The notes under the pieces are model-generated. The model ran no database searches. It was given only the letters and a program-made list of their open reading frames with translations, and was not told where the DNA came from. The position numbers were made by a program, and so were the translations under genes. A DNA stretch of 31,549 nt from Martensiomyces pterosporus (Eukaryota > Kickxellomycota > Kickxellomycetes > Kickxellales > Kickxellaceae): positions 86,971 to 118,519 of the forward strand of contig MU603946.1 of the NCBI GenBank assembly GCA_025201845.1. Reading direction: 5' to 3'. Positions 7,819 through 31,549 of the stretch are shown piece by piece (position 1 is the stretch's first letter; every line of letters starts with the position of its first letter).

Positions 7819-9135
7819 CTATAGAATGCGGATCAGCAGCTCGTAAGTGAGCAGGGTCATCATACTGGCAGGCACCGTGCGTATGAGGTTCGTCGACAGC
7901 CCGCGGTAGAATGCCGAGAGCCCTTCCTCGGCGTATATTAAGCGGACTGCATGCAGTATTCCCCTGTATTTGTACGGCGCCGTCGACTGGTTCTGCAGCC
8001 TTGTGCGGATGACCTCGTGTGGGTACGTGACGCTCGACGCGACCATCTTTGAGACTGCCGACGCCAGTAGAATCCGCGACGACTCCAGCTGATGCGCCGG
8101 ATCCACATGCATCCACTGCTTGAGCTCCTCGTACAGCGGAAACTGGACTGCAACGTGCGTGACCCCCAACAGGCTACTTCCCAAGCCCTTATAGAATCCG
8201 CGCCACCCTTCCTTTGCCTGGATCATCTGCACCGCATGCCACATGCTGTTGTATCTGTACTCCGTAAACGCACTCTGCGTCATAAACCTCGATTTGAGCA
8301 CCCAGATGGGATTAGTCAACAGCGAGGTCGTTGCGCCAGCACCCATTGCCGACCCCACATGCACTGCCGTATGCCCGGCGGGGAACTCCAAGGCGGTGGA
8401 CAGCTTCGACTTCAGCGCCTCGTAGGCAGCAAAGTAGATGCCCCAGGTCGGCAGATATCCCATGAGCATGGGCGCCAGGCCGCGGTACAGGCCGCGCACT
8501 CCTTCTTCTGTGAATATCCGGCCCAGCGTATTGAATGTCCCCCTGTATGGCGTGTACCCTTGTTTGATGTACTTTTCCTGCAAGACGCCCTGATACTGCA
8601 GCCGGGTTTTGACCACGTCCAATGGACAGGTGACTATCGAGGAAACGCAGCCAGCGCCAGCGCCGGCAATCGAGTTTTTCAGCGGCTGGCTCGATAACGC
8701 TGTCGTGGCAGTGCCAGGTGTCTGCACACTTGCTGCTACCCCTACACCCAGACCAGCAGGGGACTGGCAGGCCCTGCGAGCGCCATCGTCATCAATGTGC
8801 GCTAGCTCCTGCATCCTCCTTAGATCGCCTGTGTCCACCATTGGTGTCGCCACAACTGCGGGCAAATCGCCCACGCCTCTGCTGTCCTCTGCAATCGAGC
8901 CGCTCTGTTCTATGTCGCTGCTGTCGTCTGCTGCACTTCGCCTGCGGTCTCGTTCCCGGTGGGGCGGAATGCCACCAGACGGCCAGTAATGGTCTCGCTC
9001 GCTGTGCATTGGGCGCAGAATTCCTCTTGGGCAGCCTGTATTCTGAATGCTGGCAGCACTGTCGCTAGTGCTTTCGCTGGCTCGCGTGGAGCTCTGCCGT
9101 GTTGAATCTGCCGTCACTGCTGCTAACTCGTTCAT
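7819..9135 (-). CDS. Mitochondrial carrier, NAD+/pyrimidine-nucleotide type (SLC25, Ndt1/Rim2-like)
   Basis: The 438-residue protein has three tandem carrier repeats in its C-terminal 290 residues. The signature motifs are CPLDVVKTRLQ (about residue 170), NPIWVLKSRF and YPHEVIRTRLQ, each followed by the [EG]G-x-Y/F-G second half (GLYRGL, GFYKGL, AFYRGL). The Trp in the second motif (PIW) marks the subgroup of yeast Yia6/Yea6 (NAD+), Flx1/SLC25A32 and Rim2/SLC25A33-36 (pyrimidine nucleotides). CPLDVVKTRLQ plus YPHEVIRTRLQ fits Ndt1 best; the substrate is inference. The first 150 residues are a polar, probably disordered extension that most family members lack. The start is the first ATG (9135). 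The gene is convergent with COG2. Confidence 0.87.
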   Translation of the reverse strand: MNELAAVTADSTRQSSTRASESTSDSAASIQNTGCPRGILRPMHSERDHYWPSGGIPPHRERDRRRSAADDSSDIEQSGSIAEDSRGVGDLPAVVATPMVDTGDLRRMQELAHIDDDGARRACQSPAGLGVGVAASVQTPGTATTALSSQPLKNSIAGAGAGCVSSIVTCPLDVVKTRLQYQGVLQEKYIKQGYTPYRGTFNTLGRIFTEEGVRGLYRGLAPMLMGYLPTWGIYFAAYEALKSKLSTALEFPAGHTAVHVGSAMGAGATTSLLTNPIWVLKSRFMTQSAFTEYRYNSMWHAVQMIQAKEGWRGFYKGLGSSLLGVTHVAVQFPLYEELKQWMHVDPAHQLESSRILLASAVSKMVASSVTYPHEVIRTRLQNQSTAPYKYRGILHAVRLIYAEEGLSAFYRGLSTNLIRTVPASMMTLLTYELLIRIL

Positions 9136-10562
9136 GCACAGCAATGTCTAAATGCGTGTTTCGGTGAACCTTGCGCGCATTCAGCCAAGCGAATTTGTCT
9201 GCTTTCCGGCCAAACCGTCAGAGAAAGGGCGAAAGCAAGCGGCAACAGAACGCGGCTCTTTTGATAAAGTACAGTAATAATAATAGAAAATGACAAGAGA
9301 AGGTGCTGCTCGGGAAAAGAAGGGTGTGCGAGGAAAGGGCAATGTGCAGATAACAAAACACCAGAGGAGAGGCAGAGGAGGAGCTGAATTTGCAGCACAT
9401 GCCACATGCCTCTTTGGCTCGCAGGCGAAAGTACGTGAGAAAAGCTACGCTGGCAGTATTAGCGGATCATCGATTGCGATGAGGGACGATAGCCAAAGGG
9501 CCTCCTCAGCATAGCCGGCTTTAGAGTGAGCAAGCACTGGCCAGTGCGCAACGCGGCACGCTCCTTGGAGATTGTGTTTTTCTCCACAGGCAGTGGAAAT
9601 TGGGGCCGCATGCGTGCCCTTTGGCCTCATGGCCAGCAGCACCCCAAGCACTCCGATCCCGCCTGCTTGCATCCCGAGTTCCAGCGCATCAATATATGCA
9701 CAGGCAGCTATCGCAGACTACTGCGTGTGAGCTTGGTTACATGTGCACTATCAGCAGATCAGGCTGCGCTCTTTGGCACTGCGATTTGACACAGTAGGGC
9801 GCTGCAAGTCACGGACGGCGGAAGAGTGGGGCTGCCTTTATTGCTGTTTGACTGATGGCGTGCACTGAGCAGGCAGAAGCCTGTGCGCAGATGCATTTCG
9901 GCCAAGAAAAAGGGGGCAATGTGCACGCCCTGTTCCTGCGCTGCTCCTTTGGACACACGTTTGCAGCCTACGTCCGAGCGACGTCTGCATTGGGCATATG
10001 TCCCTGCGGAGGAAAGACACAGTACCACCCACACTAAGCGCTGCACACGGGCTTTGCTGGCTTGCCTGACAGTCAAACGGCTATCGAGTGCGAGTGTGAG
10101 AGCGCGGAGACAGGCCAGCATCAGGTGAGGGCACAAAGGGGCCTGTGCAGTGGCTTTTCTCCTTGCTTGCGCACAAAGCAGCAGCCCCTTTCCTGATTTG
10201 CCCGCACCGCTTCAGCCGCCAGCACGGCTGCGAAAAGGTTTTTCTCGCTGCCTGTGAGCGGTAGCCGCTGGTTTGGGCTTGGGTAACATAAATACAGCCC
10301 GCGATGGAGGCGGTCCGCCCTCAGATGGAGGGCCTCACCACTCACCCCCTCAGAGCTGCCTGTTCCCTCGTCCTTTTGTTGTCTATATCCTCCCTCCCGG
10401 GCAATGGCGCTGCTTCTCTGAATAGCCCATCCGCGCATATTTGCTATACCACCACAGCCCCTATCATAGCCTCTCCAAATCTCGCCTTAACGATCTTATT
10501 TATTCTCACTGCACCCACTGCCTCTACGCTATTTCCTCCTAATCATACTAATTTACTCGCTC
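9136..10562. other. Intergenic region, no gene recognised
   Basis: This 1.4-kb interval separates two divergently transcribed genes. Open frames of up to about 125 codons occur, but none has a recognisable domain, a signal peptide with a coherent mature region, or convincing codon use. CATAAATA at 10288-10295 is a plausible TATA element for the repeat-protein gene, followed by a CT-rich leader of about 240 bp. An AT-rich stretch near 9260-9300 may serve the carrier gene. Confidence 0.5.
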
Positions 10563-13500
10563 ATGTCTAACGCCTTCACACACAGCATCTCCACGTCACT
10601 TCCCGAGAGACATGCTGCTGCTTCCTCCGATCCATCTCTGAGAACACCCGAGCCGCACTCGGGCCATAGGCTTAGCGCCAGCCTGAGGCGCGCCAAAACA
10701 GCCACTGGAAACTCGTTAAGGAAACTATTCAAAGGACACAGCAGCAGCGCCAAACGCAGTGGGAACGATGCAGCACCTGGGGCAGCGCCATTCTTGCCTC
10801 TTTCGTCTGAAGAAGCACAACATCGCAGCCCAGGCAGCCCACTCGACCACCAGCACCAGCACCACACAATCTCTAGCACCCCCATGTTTGCCAAGAGCCC
10901 TGTGCTTTTGCGCCGCTACCACACGGAGCGCCGCCCGTCCTCATCGCACTCGACAAAGAGCGCTCGGACCATATTTTCAGCAGCAAAGCGGTTCAGAATC
11001 CGCTCGTCTTCAATGTCCTATCGCCGCGGCAGCGAGGAGATGGACGATGGTGGCTTGTTCAGCCTCGATCAGCCGCCGCTGGCTCACGCCTCGGCTTCAG
11101 TGAATAGGGGCAGCGCCGTGCCCTGGCCGATCACCATCCCCGAAGACAGCGACGTCCCCACGATTCCGGACCAGGAAGAGCCCTCATCGCCTGGGTGTAG
11201 CTTGCCGGTGTCTTCTGGTCAAAGGCTGCGCCATGCTGTACGTACCATGGCACTCAAACCTGGAGTGCCCTGCGCCCTTGTTCCCTTTGTATGAGCTGTC
11301 ACGCGCACATGCCTGTGTGCAGAACCAGCACCTTTCCTTTTCCATCTCCTGCACCTGAAAAACGCTCATCCGATTGTGTGGGTGCACGGGCTCCTCGATT
11401 ATCTCGGGCTCGCTTGAAATCATTGCTCCATTGTGCCATTGCCCTATGCACCTATGCATCCGCCAACGGCGCTTCCTCTCCTGCTCTCGGCATGCATGCT
11501 GTGTGCTATATGGGCCGTGCATGCCATGCAGCCACCACTAATATTTTGCAACTCGCATTTTCCTGGTTTAGGGCTCAATCAAATGCCTCAAGGAGCGTAG
11601 AAATGCAAGCACCGAGCTATTGGCCCGCAGCCGCAAGCCCTCGGTCAACACAACCACAGACACAACACCAACTCGCCAGCCGTCCAGGTACCGCCGCCAC
11701 CCGCTCCCGCCAGCTCGCCCACTACCTCTGGCGCCGTCCACCCCGCCACACTCCTCTATGGCCACTGAGGATGCCAAATCGCCTACATCTTACTCGAGCA
11801 GGAGCCTCGGCTTGAACTCGCTCGACTTTGCGTACGACGAGCACTCTGCTACTAATCTCCTTCCGCCATCGCCCATTGATTCTTCCTTGGCTCGCAGATC
11901 GCCTGCATCATCCATGTCGGCTACCAGCTCACAGCTGCAACCGCTGACCGAGATAAACGCCAACGCACTTGCTGCCTCACCTTTGCTGACGGCAGCATCG
12001 CAGGTGCCCTTCCACGGGACAACTGCGGAGCCACCTGAAGAGTTGCTATCCTCGCTTAGTGGTGTCACGATTGACTTGGTCAGCTTGGATACCCTGAGTG
12101 ACCTGGAGGAACTGGAGGAGGAGCCGCTCGCTACTTTCTCGCCGCTAACCATAGCCGAAGAGGCTGCCGGCCAAATGGATACGCCCGATATTACACTCGA
12201 CGTGAACGAGCTGGTTGCATCGCTTGGCACTGTTTCTATTATCAACGACACAGCACTGCCTTCTGCCACTCGGCCGCTAGATGACGAACCGGGTGTGCTG
12301 TCTCCCTATGTGGTCCGCGATATCGACGAGCTCCTGCTAGAATCTCGGGCTGCAGAGTCACTGGCCAACCACACCACCAGTACCACAACCGAGCACTTGC
12401 CAGCCGTGCAGGCCGATTCTGACGATGCATTCCCTCTGCTTGAAATCCACGAGCTTATCGGGCAGCTTGGACGCACTAGTCTTACTGACAGAATCTCCGC
12501 TGAAGCCACAGCGCCGTGTGATATTGCTGACAAGCAGGTTTGCAATATCGACCCCGCCAGCCTGGTGCGTAGTCTAGGTGTTGCAGTGGTTCCTGAGCCA
12601 CCTCCCACACAGCCCAAAATGCCGCTGCTTGCCTCTTCTGCGTTGGTTTCTGGTCTCGGCACTGTAGCGCCGCGGGTCGTACCAAGGAGCTCGTGCGTGG
12701 AGGAAATTGTACGCGAGCTGGGCAGCACTGAGCGGGTGTGTGACCTCGCCTTGCAGATAGGCGCGGCTGCTTCAGCTAGTCAGGGAGAGCTTGCAGCTGA
12801 GCTTGGATTCATCGCTAGTCTGCAGTCCCCGGCTGCTCTCCATGCTGAGGACCTCGTCTCTGAGGTTGGCAGCGCTGACAGGTTGGCAAATCAGGTAGCC
12901 TCTGCGGCTTCTCCGGTATATCCTGAACTTGATCCAGCGGAGCTTGTGGCAGCACTCGGATCGGTTGTTGCACCCTGCTTCCCGATCGTTCTCCACCCAG
13001 ATGAGCTTGTTACGGAGCTGGGCAGTGTCGGTGCACTGGTATCTCTTGCTGCTCCCGCAATCGCCGAGGACCCTGGGCTTGACCCTGCGGAACTAGTATC
13101 GTCCTTGGGCAGCGTCGTTCCTCTCAAGTTCCCCAGCATTATTCACAGCAACGAGCTCATTGCTGAGCTTGGTGATGTCAGTGCGTTGGTAGCATCTGCA
13201 ACTCCCGTGCCCTCGGGAGCGCCTGCATTTAATCCAGCAGAGCTCGTGTCTGCATTGGGTGCGGTCATACGACCTGAGCTCCCGAATGTCGTTCACATCG
13301 AAGAGCTCATTGCCAATCTTGGCAGCGTTGGCTGTATTGCGAATGTCGTTCCTGTGTCGCTGATTGTTGCGCCAGTAGACCCTGCTCAGCTGGTTTATGA
13401 GCTAGGCAGCGTGGTTTTTCCGTGCGTCTCCCGGAATGTTGACATTGATGGCACAATCGCCATGCTTGGCAGCGCCAACACGCTCTCTGCTCTTACACCC

Positions 13501-14067
13501 CTGCCTGTTGATGTGTCTGTCATTTCGGTGGACCCTGCGCATCTGGTTGGTGAGCTAGGACGTGCTGTTGTTCCAGCACTGCATGTCACAAGTGGGCCAT
13601 TCGCGCATGGCGCTTCCAACGACGCAGGCGAGAAGGATGCGGGATTTCAGGATAAGCTGGACATCCCCAACATCATTTCCAGTCTCGGCGGTGTTTTCTC
13701 CCCCGAGTTCGTCATCTGCGATGCTGGCCGTGTGCGCAAACTGAGCACACAGACGCTAGTGGACGAAGAAACCGCCGATGCAGCCGCTGCCTTTACATGC
13801 GCCAAGCTCCCGCATATCCAGGTGTCTAGCGACAAGCAGATGCGTTTGAAGTCAGACTGCGTCATGCAGCGCTCCTCGTTGTCACACATGGATGTCGACG
13901 AGATAATTCACGAGTCACGCTCGCGTGCCAGCTCTATGTCTGCTGGTCAACAGGAGGGTGCGCAGAATATTTCAAAACTGATTGCTGCTCTGCGCATCCC
14001 GCCTATTGTTGTTTGCCGTCCGCTGCTTGGCCCTCCCAGAAGCGTTCTCTTCTCGCATTTGTGTTGA
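10563..14067 (+). CDS. Large unrecognised protein with about 18 short ELVxxLGSV repeats
   Basis: I do not recognise this gene. I model two exons, 10563-11237 and 11572-14067, joined in phase 0 across a 334-bp intron (donor GTACGT, acceptor TTTAG after a pyrimidine stretch), giving 1,056 residues. The first 430 residues are basic, Ser/Pro/His-rich and probably disordered, with phosphorylation-prone clusters such as RRPSSSHSTKSAR. Residues from about 430 to 935 are tandem repeats of about 25 residues, each centred on [D/H]-P/x-x-E-L-V/I-x-x-L-G-S-V. Two alternating types give a 50-residue double unit. The C-terminal 120 residues contain two degenerate copies (DVDEIIHESRSR, ISKLIAALRI). No signal peptide or membrane segment is seen. 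If the donor is wrong, the first exon would be a separate 243-residue gene. Coding status of exon 2 is strong; the join is moderate. Confidence 0.7.
12187..13704 (+). repeat. Coding repeats: alternating A/B ELV-LGSV motifs, about 25 residues each
   Basis: A-type copies (DPAELVAALGSVV, DPAELVSSLGSVV, NPAELVSALGAVI, DPAQLVYELGSVV, DPAHLVGELGRAV) begin with the residue before D/N at 12928, 13078, 13228, 13375 and 13528, a period of 150, 150, 147 and 153 bp. B-type copies (HPDELVTELGSVGAL, HSNELIAELGDVSAL, HIEELIANLGSVGCI) sit between them. Earlier copies, from 12196 on, are more diverged. The DNA is not repetitive enough for recent expansion; the pattern is conserved at the protein level. Confidence 0.85.
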
Positions 14068-15133: not shown

Positions 15134-15424
15134 TTTTCCGCCCTTGCAGCCCGCCCCGGGACTCCTAGATGACGGCCAGCGGTGGGAGATTACATGAAGT
15201 CACCTGATCCCCTGCTTCCAAGCCCAATTGGATATGTGGTGGGGTGTACAAAAACATTGGGGTTCATTGGAAATAGAGGTCGTGAAGAGTAGCTAACGAA
15301 AAGGGGAGACACAGACAGACAAAAAGGACAGGGCAAGTGGCCGCACGCTGCTGCATGGATATATCCGCTCAGTCGGCTCTGGTGTAGTAGGCGTAGCGCA
15401 GCCAGTAGTGATCAAACTCGTAGA
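15134..15424. other. Intergenic plus displaced C-terminal codons of the decarboxylase
   Basis: 15369-15424 on the minus strand encodes LYEFDHYWLRYAYYTRAD and a TGA stop, which look like the ancestral C-terminus of the adjacent S-adenosylmethionine decarboxylase. They are out of frame in the present sequence. The remaining bases between 15134 and 15368 show no gene and should hold the decarboxylase 3' UTR and the glutaredoxin promoter. Confidence 0.6.
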
Positions 15425-15577
15425 GGACACGGTCAACCGCCTTGTACCCGTCGACGGCAGCAAACGAAGGCGGGGCAACATCAGCAGTCTTGAGCATGGA
15501 GGGGGACACGGTCAACCGCCTTGTACCCGTCGACGGCAGCAAACGAAGGCGGGGCAACATCAGCAGTCTTGAGCATG
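15425..15577. repeat. Tandem duplication, 74-bp match at a 79-bp period, inside a coding end
   Basis: 15425-15498 and 15504-15577 are identical over 74 bases, separated by GAGGG. Both copies encode MLKTADVAPPSFAAVDGYKA on the minus strand. The 79-bp period is not a multiple of three, so reading through the first copy shifts the frame. The perfect identity implies a very recent event or an assembly or sequencing artefact. Confidence 0.95.
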
Positions 15578-17482
15578 TCCTTCTCATTGCCCAGCTGACC
15601 GCCAGCCGGGCCTCCAGCATGGTGGGCAATGGTGTCAGCACGAGCCTTGAACACAGTGACGGTAACACAGCGGGGCTCAAAGACACGGGTGACTTGCTCA
15701 ACAAGGCTCTTGACTCCCTCGGGGGTGAGCAGATCGATGGCCTGGTCGTTCGAGACGTTAGTCTCAAAGCTGGCGTACGAGCAGTGGGGCTCAGGGGTAA
15801 CGTGGATGGTGTAGTATCCGTCGCCCTGAACTCCATTGAGGGAGAACCCACAGGGCGAGAAAAGGAACGAGTCGCTTGCAGACTCGGGGTAAATGTCCGC
15901 GATCCCCGAGGCACGCTCAACAGCCTTGCCTCCGCAGGCACCCTCCTCGGCGCCAACCCCATCCACGTACATGAGACGCATGCGGTCCGGGTCGAGTCCA
16001 GTCATCAGGATCTCCACAGTGGTGTCGGTGCTGGTGGCCGTAGCGCTGCTGACACTGTGGCCACGCGCAGAGCCCCCGCGGCTGACCTCACAGTCACTGT
16101 GCACAGTGGAGCGCGACGAGGTGCGGCTCAGGGAGTTGATGCGGGGCGACCCCACAATGGAGTTGTTGACAGTAGCCCCACCCAAGGCAGTGCCTTGCTC
16201 CTGCCGGTGCTCGGAGTCGCTGGCCTCCGAGTCCGCGGCGTGCTCCTCGAGCAAGGCGCCATCAAGCATCTTGGCGTTCTCAGCGGCGGCATGCATACGG
16301 GCAGTATCATAGGGCCCGCTGAGGTAGACGTGCCAGTGGTCGCGGTTGGTCTTTCCAATCAGGTACGCAGAACCCTCGGGGAAAAAGGCGTCCAGGAAGG
16401 CCACCTCCTTCTCCCACGAACGGTGCAATTCCTCCTGCTTGTCAGGGAACATAAAGTTCTTGCGCGAGTAAAAGACCTGGTACACGCCAACCACGCCCAG
16501 GTACGAGTGAGCAATCTCGAGGATGCGCGGGATGGCGTATAGAAGCGTCGTCGTCCCGCATGTCTTGAGAACAAGCTTGTGTGGGTACACAAAGAACGAC
16601 GACTCGCTACATGCAGAAGGGCATATCAAATGCATACGAAATGAAGCGAGATTAGCTGCTGGCTCAGGAACAGCCAGGTGCGCGGCTGGTGCGTGTGTGG
16701 CGGAGATGGAACGCATGCACAAACAAAGCGCCCTCCGGTGGCCAATGAAAGGGGCCTGGCACTGCGAGGCAGTTTGGGTGTGCTGCTGCCAGCGCCTGGG
16801 GATGGATGGGGAGGAGGGACGGGAGGGACGGGAGGGACACCTGCTGTTCGCTGCACAGCAGCTGGCAGATATTGGGCCAAGAGCTGGCAATCAGCGGGCC
16901 TCCTCCCCATCCGGCGCTTTCCCTCTGTCGCCCTGTCACGCAGTATGAGAAAAAAAAAATCCCACAGGAACTGCCGATCCACCAATGCAAAGGCACGCCA
17001 GAGGGCCATCAAGCAGAATGTGTGCCCGCGGCAAATGCCTGGCAGTAAAGGCAAGGGAGACGCGAGGAAAACAGGCAGGACGACAGGAGCAGCGGGGACA
17101 ATGCCGCTTACCTAAGGAGGTAGGAATCGAGGTGCTCATTGCACAGAGTGCTGAGCACCTGGCAATGGACGAGATCGAGCATCTCGCGCCAAACAGCACG
17201 CGGGACGCACCGCAGTCCATTGCGCAACTCAGACCACTGATCAAGGTCTTCGTCGCAGAGCTTATCAGCCTGGTTAGTGACCTGCGCCGCCTGAGCGTTA
17301 GGCGCAAACCACATTTCCAGGAGCTTCTCGGGGCCCTCAAAGGCACCCGTATACCCCTCGCTGTGCGTGCCATTGCTGCTGCACGTCGGGGTAGTAGACT
17401 GTTTAACGGCCTTGGGATTCTCGGTGACGCTCACGGCTTGCTGGGCGCCACCGACGGTCGACGAAGATGGAGGATGCGGCAT
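15481..17482 (-). CDS. SPE2: S-adenosylmethionine decarboxylase proenzyme, C-terminus shifted by a tandem duplication
   Basis: Exons 17112-17482 and 15481-16606 flank a 505-bp intron (donor GTAAGC, acceptor TGTAG); the join restores YLLSESSFFVYPHKL. This is the self-cleavage site of the pyruvoyl enzyme, with scission expected between E125 and S126. Downstream, KTCGTTTLL holds the catalytic Cys, and HCSYASFETN is the conserved processing and active-site block. The enzyme makes decarboxylated AdoMet for spermidine and spermine synthesis. As read, the product has 498 residues. A Ser-rich insert of about 90 residues sits between HWHVYLSGPY and TVEILMTGLDPD. The last codons run into a 79-bp-period tandem duplication, so the frame ends DRVPLHAQDC instead of the likely native LYEFDHYWLRYAYYTRAD. 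Only the tail is affected, so activity may survive. Confidence 0.9.
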
Positions 17483-18543
17483 TTATTTGATGCGGCAAAA
17501 GTCGTTCGAGGTCTGAAGCTGGTCTGCTGGGTTGGCTCTGCGAGAGAAAAGCCGTGCTGCTTCGTGGGCTGAGTTTGTCCGCCCGTTCGAAGGGAGAGTA
17601 GAAAAGAGCAAGAAAAAAGTAAAGAGGGGGCCTGCTGGAGTTGGAAAATCAAAAGAGAAAAGGGCTCTGCTTCGCTTGGGTCACAAGCAGCTCTTATCTG
17701 CTGCTGCCTGCTATAAAACTGTAGGGATGGTGTGTGGGCTGACGGTGCGCCAATAAGGTTTGGAGATACCCGTCGCGCGCACGTTTGGAATGTTTAGACT
17801 GCGAATGTTTTCTTAGAAGGCCGTCGGTGTGTCACCGATACATAAAAGGGGAATAGGCCTGGTTACTACCAAAGAGGTGGGTAGCGCAATGAAGAAGGAA
17901 GGGAAAGCTACAGATCAGGAGATGCCGAGCGCGCAAAAATTTTCCTACTGCTTCTGGGGCCAGCTAGCATAGAGCTAGAGGCGATCTGGGGAGTCATGTG
18001 AGCGTCTATCAATGGATGCAAGTCCCAGGAACTCCTGATTTGCCCGTTTGTGCCAGCGGCCGGTCCCGACAGAGAGCGGCTGCCCATACAGAAGGAAGCT
18101 CTTTTATGGCTAGCAAGGCGAGTGGGCGGGGCAGCAGCATCGCCAGCTAGCATTCAGATGCCAGCTGCTGCTGGCAATGGGCGCACGCCGTGTCCTTCAC
18201 CAGAGCTTGGCCTGAGGTTGGCAGGGCTGAAATGTGGCAACTATGCTGGCCTCTGCATGCATGTGCAAAATGGCTACAGCGAGCTGTGTCATGTCGGTAG
18301 GGCATATCATGCAAATATCCGACATTTGGAGGCGTGGAAACGAAACCCCCATTGTGTGCATTCCATTCGTAGCAGCGTTCTGTCGTCACAGTCAGCCCTG
18401 TAGATGTATAATGTTTTAGGTGTTCATTGTGTGGCTCTAGATATAGCTGAGCAGCTAGATAAAGCACCAAAAGTGCTGAGTGCCAACCCAACACATTGGC
18501 GCAAATTAAGAAAAATAACAATCAAGAGGGAGGAAACCGTGAA
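17483..18543. other. Intergenic region upstream of the decarboxylase
   Basis: This is about 1.1 kb with no recognisable gene. TATAAAA occurs at 17712-17717 on the plus strand. An open frame on the minus strand (17431-17652) starts upstream of the decarboxylase ATG and overlaps it in another frame. If transcribed, it would act as an overlapping upstream ORF; such uORFs regulate this gene in plants and animals, but nothing here proves one. The part near 18420-18540 is AT-rich and should hold the end of the repeat-peptide gene A transcript. Confidence 0.45.
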
Positions 18544-18558
18544 GTTTGCGCAGCAAAC
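18544..18558 (-). other. Short hairpin downstream of repeat-peptide gene A
   Basis: GTTTGC and GCAAAC pair perfectly around a 3-base loop, about 90 bases after the stop codon. Copies B and C have hairpins of different sequence (CACAGC..GCTGTG) at 35 bases after their stops. Different bases with retained pairing would suggest structure conservation, but alignment of the copies here is weak. Confidence 0.35.
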
Positions 18559-18649
18559 CCACAGGGCTTTCTAATGGAGCGTCGGTTTGAAGATTGTGAA
18601 ATGGCTGCCCGGCAACATTTTCGGTTGAACGGTGTGTATGCGCATTCCT

Positions 18650-18871
18650 TCACCAGTTGCCCACAGTGTCGACCTGGCGGCGGACGTAGTTGTCGTTCCA
18701 GTTGCCGACGTTGTCAACCTGGCGGCGGACGTAGTTGTCGTTCCAGTTGCCGACATTGTCAACCTGGCGGCGGACGTAGTTGTCGTTCCAGTTGCCAACA
18801 TTGTCGACCTGAGGAGCAGGGGCAGCAATGGCAGCGGTGGCAAGAGCAAGGAGAGCGATGAAGGACTTCAT
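18650..18871 (-). CDS. Secreted Kex2-type repeat-peptide precursor, copy A
   Basis: This 73-residue protein starts MKSFIALLALATAAIA, a textbook signal peptide, followed by APAP. It then carries three consecutive 15-residue repeats QVDNVGNWNDNYVRR and a fourth cut short by TGA after QVDTVGNW. Each full repeat ends in Arg-Arg, the site of the Golgi protease Kex2. Processing would release three copies of QVDNVGNWNDNYV, with N-terminal Gln able to cyclise to pyroglutamate. Two X-Pro dipeptides before the first repeat fit Ste13-like trimming. The architecture is that of alpha-factor-like pheromone or KEP precursors; the core sequence matches nothing I know. The start is chosen at 18871 because the reading frame continues upstream without another ATG leading into a signal peptide, and the paralogue B starts with the same MKSF. 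Confidence 0.85.
   Translation of the reverse strand: MKSFIALLALATAAIAAPAPQVDNVGNWNDNYVRRQVDNVGNWNDNYVRRQVDNVGNWNDNYVRRQVDTVGNW
18677..18811 (-). repeat. Three 45-bp coding repeats of the copy A core peptide
   Basis: Units are 18767-18811, 18722-18766 and 18677-18721 in order of translation. They differ at one to three bases per pair, and every difference is synonymous (GTC/GTT, AAT/AAC, GTT/GTC). A partial fourth unit, 18653-18676, has an Asn-to-Thr change before the stop codon. Confidence 0.95.
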
Positions 18872-18980
18872 TGTTGTAGCTGTTTTGCAGGCGCTGGTGT
18901 TGTAGCTGTTTCGTAGGCTGTGGTGTTGTAGCTTGAAGATATTGAGTAGAGATATTGGGGACTGGTGCGCCAACACGGGC

Positions 18981-18988
18981 TATATATA
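18981..18988 (-). promoter_or_regulatory. TATA box of repeat-peptide gene A
   Basis: TATATATA (plus strand TATATATACT) lies about 110 bases upstream of the ATG. The paralogue B has TATATAA at an almost identical distance from its own ATG, which supports both starts. Confidence 0.65.
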
Positions 18989-19197
18989 CTGTCGATCCAA
19001 GTATCTACATGTATATCGTTACGTAAAATTAACAAGTTCAAAGTTGTTAGCATGAACACCACCATGTACATGTTCAAAAGAGGCAAAAACACACCTTGAA
19101 GCACCACACACCAATTATTTGCGCAATTGCATGAAACACATTGCCCTACCTATTCCGCCAAGTCTTGCTCTATGAGTGCCAGTTGACGGCGTGGATC

Positions 19198-19370
19198 TAT
19201 TATCTGGTGAATGTTTGGAATCAAAGCGGAAGCCCATGTCTCTGTTCGTTTCATTTATTTATTGACTACAAAGAAAGGCCCCACCTGGCTGTTTCCGCTT
19301 TTCATACGAGCATGCACATGTGTCCGATCTCACTAGCTTTGCTCGCTGCATGTCATGCTGCTCCCAGCAG
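19198..19370. repeat. Far-upstream block shared with copy B (31382-31549)
   Basis: Shared landmarks in the same order are TATTATCTGGTG, TTTATTGACTxCAAAGAAAG, GTTTCCGxxTTTCATACGA, GATGCACATG-like and GCTGCATxTCAxGCTGCT. Both blocks lie 330-500 bp upstream of an MKSF start and have the same orientation relative to the gene. This shows that A and B arose by duplication of a segment larger than the coding region. The block contains AATAAA on the minus strand, so it might be the 3' end of a lost neighbouring gene, or an upstream control element. Confidence 0.7.
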
Positions 19371-20217
19371 CTTGTAAGCATGTATGTTGCGCTTGGTATG
19401 CGCTATAGCTACCGCCTCTGCAATTGAAGCAATAGCCGAGAACATTGCTTGCGCAAAATAGCACAGCAGAGGCGGCAGCTCCCAATGCGTCACGAGACAC
19501 CTACCGGTATTCTGTCATACCACCGCGGGTGGGTGTAGTGGAGCAAGAGAGCCCTCTTGCTTCGTGCTGGGGACAAGGATGCGGACACATATAAAGTGTA
19601 TGGGGAGACCCATGCCTCGCACTCTTCGACTCCATCGTATTTCCGTCGCATTCCCTGCCTTGCCTGCTGCTCCGTCTATTTCTGAGCAGGATGCGGTGTC
19701 TGACCAAGCAGTGTGGCCATTGCCCAGTACTCGGCACATGCTCTGCCTTATTGGATCAATGATCTGGTCCATTACATGGCATTCCAACAGAGTGGCGCGA
19801 GTCCCAGCATCCGCTGCGAGACAAGCAGCCAGCAGAGAAAGCACCAGATGGCGGTGCACCCGTACTTCAGCAGCACAAGTGCTGGCAGTATAGCTTCAAT
19901 TGCCACCATTGTAGACTGGGCATCGTATTGCCGCAATAAGGAGTGCGCGAAGACACGCGTCTGGGCTGTGGCGCGAGCCTGCATCTCGTGCATGGAGGCG
20001 CAATGGTTCATTGTGTAACTGACACGAAGCGGCGGGTGATCAAGTACTCCAGATCCGTTAATCAGAACATGCAGCCATCTGGGCTCGCATGAGTTTAATC
20101 TGCCGCTTTTTGCTGCCAAGAATCGCCAGGTATGCGGGCCCAGGTTGACATGGCCCTTTTTTCCGCATTTGTTTGTATTTCAGTAATTAGACGCAGGCCG
20201 CATTTTACGCCTTGGCA
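19371..20217. other. Intergenic; a possible small gene at about 19583-20018 (+), unproven
   Basis: CATATAAAG at about 19586-19594 is a good TATA-like sequence. Downstream, the plus strand reads an open frame ending at TAA 20016-20018 that begins without an ATG at 19704. Its translation has ordinary composition and GC-biased third positions (AQYSAHALPYWINDLVHYM, then a Cys-containing region). The ATG-initiated frame just after the TATA element (19612 on) is a different frame, so linking them would need an intron or a frameshift. I see no family match. It may be a small secreted-protein gene, a decayed one, or chance. Confidence 0.3.
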
Positions 20218-30757: not shown

Positions 30758-30792
30758 TTACTGCTGTGCCTCATTTTCAGGCGAGCGGCGGA
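30673..30792. repeat. Right arm of the 120-bp inverted duplication (partner 1-120)
   Basis: It covers the last three codons before the tail (F-R-R), the SPENEAQQ tail, the stop codon and 85 bases of 3' UTR of gene B. It matches the reverse complement of 1-120 at 113 of 120 positions. Confidence 0.85.
30706..30723 (-). other. Hairpin in the 3' UTR of copy B
   Basis: CACAGCG pairs with CGCTGTG around a four-base loop, 35 bases after the stop codon. The inner 14 bases ACAGCGAACCCGCT recur at 31245-31258, upstream of the same gene. Confidence 0.45.
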
Positions 30793-31057
30793 AGTAGCGG
30801 TCGTCCCACCCGCCAACATTGTCAACCTGACGGCGGAAATAGCCATCATTCCAGTTCCCAACGTTATCGACTTGGCGGCGGAAGTAGCGGTCGTCCCATC
30901 TGCCGACGTTGTCAACCTGAGGGGCAGCGATAGGTTCGGGGGCAGCAACGGGCTCAGGAGCAGGAGCAGGAGCAGGAGCAGGAACAGGAACAGGAACAGG
31001 AGCAGGAGCAGCAATGCCAGCGGCAGCAAGGACAAGGAGAGAAATAAAGGACTTCAT
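30758..31057 (-). CDS. Secreted Kex2-type repeat-peptide precursor, copy B
   Basis: The 99-residue precursor starts MKSFISLLVLAAAGIA (signal peptide). Residues 17-46 form a spacer that divides exactly into 15 dipeptides ending in Pro or Ala. The repeats at residues 47-61, 62-76 and 77-91 read QVDNVGRWDDRYFRR, QVDNVGNWNDGYFRR and QVDNVGGWDDRYFRR. The tail is SPENEAQQ. Each repeat ends in the Kex2 site RR, so three related 13-residue peptides are expected. Invariant positions are QVDNVG, W8, D10, Y12 and the RR; the variable ones are 7, 9 and 11, and 13 is Phe here and Val in copy A. It is convergent with IVD. The start is chosen because the only preceding in-frame candidates lack a signal peptide and lie at or beyond the TATA box. 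Function is unknown: a peptide signal, pheromone-like factor or RiPP precursor. Confidence 0.87.
   Translation of the reverse strand: MKSFISLLVLAAAGIAAPAPVPVPVPAPAPAPAPEPVAAPEPIAAPQVDNVGRWDDRYFRRQVDNVGNWNDGYFRRQVDNVGGWDDRYFRRSPENEAQQ
30785..30919 (-). repeat. Three 45-bp coding repeats of the copy B core peptide
   Basis: Units are 30875-30919, 30830-30874 and 30785-30829. Unlike copy A, they differ at both synonymous and non-synonymous sites, with changes concentrated at core positions 7, 9 and 11. Confidence 0.95.
30955..31008 (-). repeat. Hexanucleotide repeat (CAGGAG/CAGGAA), coding an X-Pro ladder
   Basis: Nine hexamers in a row encode the alternating Ala-Pro and Val-Pro dipeptides of the copy B spacer. 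Each hexamer gained or lost adds or removes exactly one X-Pro dipeptide, so the spacer can change length without breaking the frame or the dipeptide register. Confidence 0.9.
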
Positions 31058-31381
31058 TTCCGTGGTTCTTTTCGTAACGTGTTTGCTAGGGTGCTGTTTG
31101 GTGGTGTGGTATGGTGTGGTGATAGCAAGCAAAGACGCTGAGGTCCGGTGCCCTGCCATTGATTATATAGACATGCTCAATCCGAGCACCCACATGTCTG
31201 CAGTTGTGTAGAGACCAACATGCAAACTAATTAACGAGAACAATACAGCGAACCCGCTCAAGGAGCAGCAGGCGATACCCTGAGATGCAGCACACCGACT
31301 ATTGACACAATTGCCTGTAGAGCGCTGGCAAGCTTATTCAGCCATGTCCTACAGTGGATGTGGTGGCTAGTACCGCTGGTG
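31058..31381 (-). promoter_or_regulatory. Upstream region of repeat-peptide gene B with TATA box
   Basis: CTATATAATC (plus strand GATTATATAG, 31161-31170) lies about 108 bases upstream of the ATG, matching the TATA spacing of gene A. ACAGCGAACCCGCT at 31245-31258 repeats the 3' UTR hairpin sequence. CACACCxAxTATTxxCxCAATTGC near 31291-31315 is shared with gene A's upstream region near 19107-19131. Confidence 0.6.
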
Positions 31382-31549
31382 TATTATCTGGTGGGTGTTT
31401 GAAAGAAAGGCGGGAAAACGTGTATCCCCTTGTTTTATTGACTGCAAAGAAAGATGCAGCACGGCCGTTTCCGTGTTTCATACGAGGATGCACATGCACA
31501 TGGTCTGGCTGCTGGCTTGGCTGGCTGCATATCACGCTGCTTCCACCAG
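31382..31549. repeat. Far-upstream block shared with copy A (19198-19370), running to the window edge
   Basis: It contains the same ordered landmarks as the block upstream of gene A, in the same orientation relative to the peptide gene. The homology may continue past the window end. Confidence 0.7.

Follow-up and report, generated by a model that had tools for sequence, protein, structure and literature searches.

Kex2-processed repeat proteins (KEPs) are fungal precursors described by Le Marquer et al. (2019, PMC6339444), whose criteria ask for an N-terminal signal peptide with no other membrane segment, Kex2 in the genome, cleavage at KR or RR into four fragments or more, at least three similar repeats, and repeats that make up at least 15% of the protein. 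In the same survey STE13 is said to prefer X-Pro/X-Ala-type dipeptides, and KEPs with an STE13 signature are put forward as good candidates for peptide hormones (PMC6339444). Qsp1 of Cryptococcus neoformans, a small secreted peptide, undergoes extracellular maturation by Pqp1, a protease associated with the cell wall, and exerts its effect through Opt1, a predicted oligopeptide transporter (PMC7537855). Also comparable are the ascomycete alpha-factor precursors, which combine a signal peptide, X-Pro/X-Ala dipeptides, dibasic-spaced repeats and a 13-residue product, and the dikaritins (ustiloxin, phomopsin), which have Kex2-spaced repeats with Tyr in the core. Among pheromone receptors, STE2-like proteins have been reported only in Ascomycota and STE3-like proteins predominantly in Ascomycota and Basidiomycota (PMC12842992).

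We analysed a 31,549-base stretch of Martensiomyces pterosporus DNA, referred to throughout as the window, in which an earlier note had placed a repeat-peptide precursor at 18650..18871 on the reverse strand; translation bore out its coordinates, strand and peptide. This gene, here called A, is a single open frame of 73 amino acids (coordinates include the TGA stop), and its translation reads MKSFIALLALATAAIAAPAP, three copies of QVDNVGNWNDNYVRR, then QVDTVGNW and the stop. All features of A and of its paralogue B lie on the reverse strand. The putative signal peptide of A, MKSFIALLALATAAIA (18824..18871), was assigned by inspection and hydropathy and is homologous to that of B; it has an MK start, a hydrophobic core with a mean Kyte-Doolittle value of 2.56, and A-I-A before the presumed cut. 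It is followed by an APAP spacer (18812..18823), two X-Pro dipeptides that would suit a Ste13/DPP-type protease, and by the repeats at 18767..18811, 18722..18766 and 18677..18721. The earlier note counted three identical cores, and the three full copies stand, but it omitted a truncated fourth, QVDTVGNW (18653..18676), directly before the stop, so that A would encode three 13-mers plus an 8-mer. A TATA-like element, recognised by sequence and by alignment with B, lies at 18980..18989, ~110 bases before the start codon of A.

Tandem Repeats Finder reported the A array with a period of 45, 3.5 copies and a score of 276, so it is not a chance arrangement. The three full repeats differ in their DNA at only three sites, in codons 2, 4 and 5, and all three differences are synonymous, as the note had said; under simple models the probability that three random changes would all be synonymous is 0.007-0.021. 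However, 12 of the 15 codons are DNA-identical in all three repeats, and much of this identity is accounted for by recent duplication or by gene conversion, so the silent changes within A are thin evidence of selection. Searches of Rfam with window positions 18000-20217 gave no match, and the best hit of A among PDB sequences had an E of 0.97, with nothing convincing.

Gene B (30758..31057; 99 amino acids, stop included in the coordinates) is a paralogue of A, 12 kb away in the same window. We place its start at the ATG at 31057 and not at the in-frame ATG at 31159, because the latter adjoins a TATA-like element and A starts at the homologous MKSF. The putative signal peptide, MKSFISLLVLAAAGIA (31010..31057), was again assigned by inspection and hydropathy, and it leads into a Pro/Ala-rich spacer of 30 residues (30920..31009) that consists of 15 consecutive X-Pro/X-Ala dipeptides and ends exactly at the first Gln. 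Three diverged repeats of the form QVDNVGxWxDxYFRR follow, QVDNVGRWDDRYFRR (30875..30919), QVDNVGNWNDGYFRR (30830..30874) and QVDNVGGWDDRYFRR (30785..30829), and the protein closes with a tail, SPENEAQQ (30761..30784), that is unrelated to the repeat. B thus retains the signal peptide, dibasic spacing and core of A, and the anatomy of both genes bears out the earlier description, a repeat precursor of secreted type whose RR pairs are spaced as for Kex2.

Comparison of the six full repeats of A and B showed that 11 of 15 positions are invariant (residues 1-6, 8, 10, 12, 14 and 15), with residue changes confined to positions 7, 9, 11 and 13. Tyr at position 12 and the RR pair are each present in all six. 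Silent codon variation was seen at nine of the 11 invariant positions, and, of the variable columns, four are in codon phase 1, two in phase 2 and 11 in phase 3. Codons 1-18 of the signal peptides gave a dN of 0.11 and a dS of 0.44 between A and B, the latter from only 15 silent sites. Selection on the peptide, which the note had read from the three silent changes, is better supported by B and by the homologue P0003 described below.

The duplication also extends into the 5' flanks. A block upstream of A (19198..19370) is 70% identical to one upstream of B (31382..31549) over 178 aligned columns (blastn E=2e-17, and alignment), and a further 108-base block in the 5' flanks is also 70% identical. 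Since this is about what silent divergence would leave (dS 0.44, 15 sites), we take the identity to be a footprint of the duplication and not regulatory constraint, and conservation of the upstream DNA as a regulatory signature was dropped because it fits neutral divergence. When the A block was searched against the genome it matched only itself, and as local blastn does find the B copy, that search misses diverged DNA. No third copy of A or B was found in the 17.4 Mb assembly using protein search and the core pattern, a survey that is not exhaustive. The core DNA pattern with at most two mismatches had 267 matches in the genome compared with 153 for a reversed control; 30 matches were inspected as loci, the six exact ones all being A and B, and there was no other repeat precursor among these 30. 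The only other own-genome match of B below E=0.01 was C9 (E=7.7e-5), which was rejected as it aligns with the leader and Pro/Ala spacer only, and its locus (L036) has no core motif.

Outside this genome a single clear relative was detected. P0003 is a protein of 79 amino acids, MKASLTLAALVFAAISAATPAPAPQVDNVGNWKIPRQIDHVVNWKDIHARRQVDNVGNWEDKFGRRQVDHVGNWEEPCP, represented by a single sequence from a 2417-base contig (source 'lgn'), and it was matched at E=1.1e-9 by B (P0002) among the best 8000 candidates by shared words. It shares 61% identity with A across 77 columns and has the plan of A and B, a putative signal peptide, PAPAP and QVDNVGNW, although its first unit ends in a single Arg (PR) and RR stands at two of its three inner junctions. 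The element common to A, B and P0003 is Q[VI]D[NHT]V[GV]xW, with the half after Trp more variable. The earlier note had named the lack of any homologue with conserved repeats as grounds for abandoning its reading; B and P0003 are both homologues of that kind. The search with B gave 28 proteins at E<=10 among the 8000 scored, the 27 besides P0003 all having E>0.06, and six further proteins that were inspected had no core repeat. A profile search with the A2 alignment returned P0003 only, itself a row of that alignment. A protein search with A alone matched nothing although P0003 is 61% identical to it, which demonstrates a limited reach, and rarity of the family does not follow from the few relatives found. 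Scans of prokaryote and viral contigs gave 19 and 118 pattern stretches, respectively, none confirmed by tblastn, and A, B and P0003 (P0001-P0003) had no Pfam match over the cut-off.

We also surveyed the genome for the proteases that such precursors would need. It encodes a Kex2-like protein with an S8 and a P domain and a TM-like stretch towards the C-terminus, and a Ste13/DPP-IV-like protein with DPPIV_N and S9 domains and an N-terminal TM-like stretch. There were 12 matches to S10 carboxypeptidases, and one of the eight examined as loci, L056, carries a tail behind a TM-like stretch, which we take to be the arrangement of Kex1. Between the presumed signal cut and the first Gln, all dipeptides are X-Pro or X-Ala and in register in A (2/2), B (15/15) and P0003 (3/3), using cut sites that were chosen by hand; if P0003 is cut one residue earlier the register is lost. 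A shuffle test reproduced the register in 648 of 200000 cases, but this value of ~0.003 overstates the case and is not independent evidence, because the X-Pro run of B overlaps a 6-base DNA repeat array, slippage of which could produce it.

From these parts the following route can be proposed. The signal peptide would bring the chain into the ER, the Kex2-like protease would cleave behind every RR, and a Kex1-like carboxypeptidase would remove the two Arg, while the Ste13/DPP-IV-like protease would strip the X-Pro/X-Ala leader off the first copy, up to Gln. The predicted products of A are three copies of QVDNVGNWNDNYV together with QVDTVGNW, and those of B are QVDNVGRWDDRYF, QVDNVGNWNDGYF and QVDNVGGWDDRYF. 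Calculated [M+H]+ values are 1536.6714 for QVDNVGNWNDNYV (1519.6448 as pyroGlu), 918.4316 for QVDTVGNW (901.4050 as pyroGlu), and 1669.7717, 1527.6499 and 1570.6921 for the B products, each lower by 17.0266 if pyroGlu forms. N-terminal Gln can become pyroglutamate, and that of the released peptides may likewise cyclise.

The KEP criteria were applied to A and B directly, in place of the published pipeline (FIMO etc.). Each precursor gives four fragments and has three repeats, with a partial fourth in A; repeats account for 45 of 73 residues in A and 45 of 99 in B, and a protein with S8 and P domains is encoded in the genome. A and B resemble KEPs in that a signal-like peptide is followed by three short units, almost identical and with RR between them, in that the repeats take up a large share of a small protein, and in that the genome has a Kex2-like gene. 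They differ in that the core QVDNVGxWxDxY is not among the motifs named in the parts of PMC6339444 compared here, which do not extend to its table of 1193 KEPs, where the family may already be listed. The string QVDNVG was found in none of the papers searched, supplements aside, in keeping with the note's statement that it recognised no described peptide with this core. A, B and P0003 are a real, conserved peptide family of a known kind, and one that is probably undescribed.

The earlier note had also likened A to alpha-factor and dikaritin precursors, and neither likeness was supported. The A and B peptides contain Trp, as alpha-factor does, and the plan of the precursors is shared as outlined above. 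However, alpha-factor precursors have dipeptides at each Kex2 site, whereas in A and B these are restricted to the leader and Gln directly follows RR. Furthermore, Pfam pheromone models were not listed for A, B or P0003 up to E=10 (filters drop most matches above ~0.1). We therefore do not file A and B as alpha-factor type. STE2 was not found in the genome at E<=0.1 and STE3 was also not found, although for each receptor 0 of 14 control genomes gave a match either, so absence is not proven. Taken with the distribution reported for these receptors and with the long uninterrupted reading frames of the window, this makes an early-diverging fungus a guess for the host.

Several features near the genes are recorded here in their own right. 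In the window, a 79-base unit is duplicated in tandem without a mismatch at positions 15425-15577 (1.9 copies, 100% identity), within ORFs 15369-16716 (-). The coding sequence affected is that of an S-adenosylmethionine decarboxylase gene, and 79 is not a multiple of three; the end of this gene appears to lie in a second, overlapping ORF. The duplication may have arisen by recent mutation or be an artefact of the assembly. At 11758-14067 (+) there is an ORF of 769 amino acids in which many degenerate ELVxxLGSV-type units can be seen by eye, with no Pfam match at E<=0.001. In L042, part of the class I chitinase profile (GH19, positions 84-163 of 232) matches an ORF of 346 amino acids (8341-9381, +) above the cut-off, at E=5.6e-11. 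An OPT oligopeptide transporter gene (L041 1872-4310, -) lies upstream of B, ~2.4 kb away in assembly coordinates, and between the two are two near-identical tandem repeat copies of ~180 bases (L041 1292-1744, +).

The proximity of the OPT gene to B, together with the action of Qsp1 through Opt1, makes peptide import a possible route. The genome contains 18 stretches that match OPT, of which seven lie on contig C54, so the position beside B may be coincidental and is a lead only. Qsp1 is likened to the A and B peptides by description and not by sequence, and its extracellular maturation by Pqp1 differs from the processing proposed here.

With respect to what the precursors do, cyclisation of their Tyr- and Trp-containing cores by UstYa-family oxidases after Kex2 cleavage, as in a dikaritin-type RiPP, appears very improbable. 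The cores are Kex2-spaced and contain Tyr, and the KEP survey recovered the ustiloxin and phomopsin precursors (PMC6339444), but dikaritins have UstYa and we found none. A genome search for UstYa (PF11807) gave no match, which weighs little since 0 of 14 control genomes matched either. Nor did Pfam scans of 24 ORFs reveal UstYa; these came from 60 listed ORFs of >=150 aa across the window plus 30 kb of flank, and intron-split genes could be missed in such a scan. That A is merely a decaying or chance ORF, its repeat identity reflecting only a recent DNA duplication, seems scarcely credible: the DNA identity of most codons across its copies and the fourth copy cut short by a stop would fit such decay, but the change between A and B repeats is silent-biased, and P0003, a further homologue with the same plan, already largely refutes it. 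It is also distinctly unlikely that the proteins are secreted with their repeats uncut, as small repeat proteins in which RR is simply part of the repeat. The single Arg after the first unit of P0003 would agree with this, whereas RR is kept in every full repeat of A and B and at most inner junctions of P0003 while residues 7, 9, 11 and 13 drift; moreover, genes for all three pathway protease types are present, and the C-terminal tail of B bears no relation to the repeat.

Cleaved peptides could instead serve some purpose other than signalling, either on the hyphal surface in the manner of Ustilago Rep1 or as a toxin or antimicrobial directed at other organisms, and we regard this as unlikely but deserving of real weight. 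Precursors with several copies of a polar 13-mer, rich in Asn/Asp and containing Trp and Tyr, would fit a bulk product as well as a signal, and Rep1 yields hypha-attached peptides (PMC6339444). Rep1 is, however, without an STE13 signature (PMC6339444), whereas leaders of that kind are present in A and B. Short peptides in which 11 of 15 positions never vary also look receptor-like, and a search of the genome, not exhaustive, gave no more than two gene copies.

On balance we lean, somewhat more than evenly, towards A and B being a duplicated pair of single-frame KEP genes whose 13-residue, Gln-first peptides most likely act as a self-directed extracellular signal, hormone- or pheromone-like. 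The short peptide, the strong constraint on its core, the small number of genes and the Ste13-type leader all favour a signal directed at the fungus itself. A narrower proposal, that an early-diverging fungus with neither STE2 nor STE3 uses the peptides as a signal for mating or density, and would perceive them through another receptor class or by import through the OPT transporter encoded beside B, is speculative and rather improbable. If true, it would mean peptide signalling in a lineage for which pheromone chemistry has been reported as largely unknown. If the peptides are made, A, B and P0003 would represent a conserved family of secreted peptides, with exact predicted products ready for synthesis and assay.
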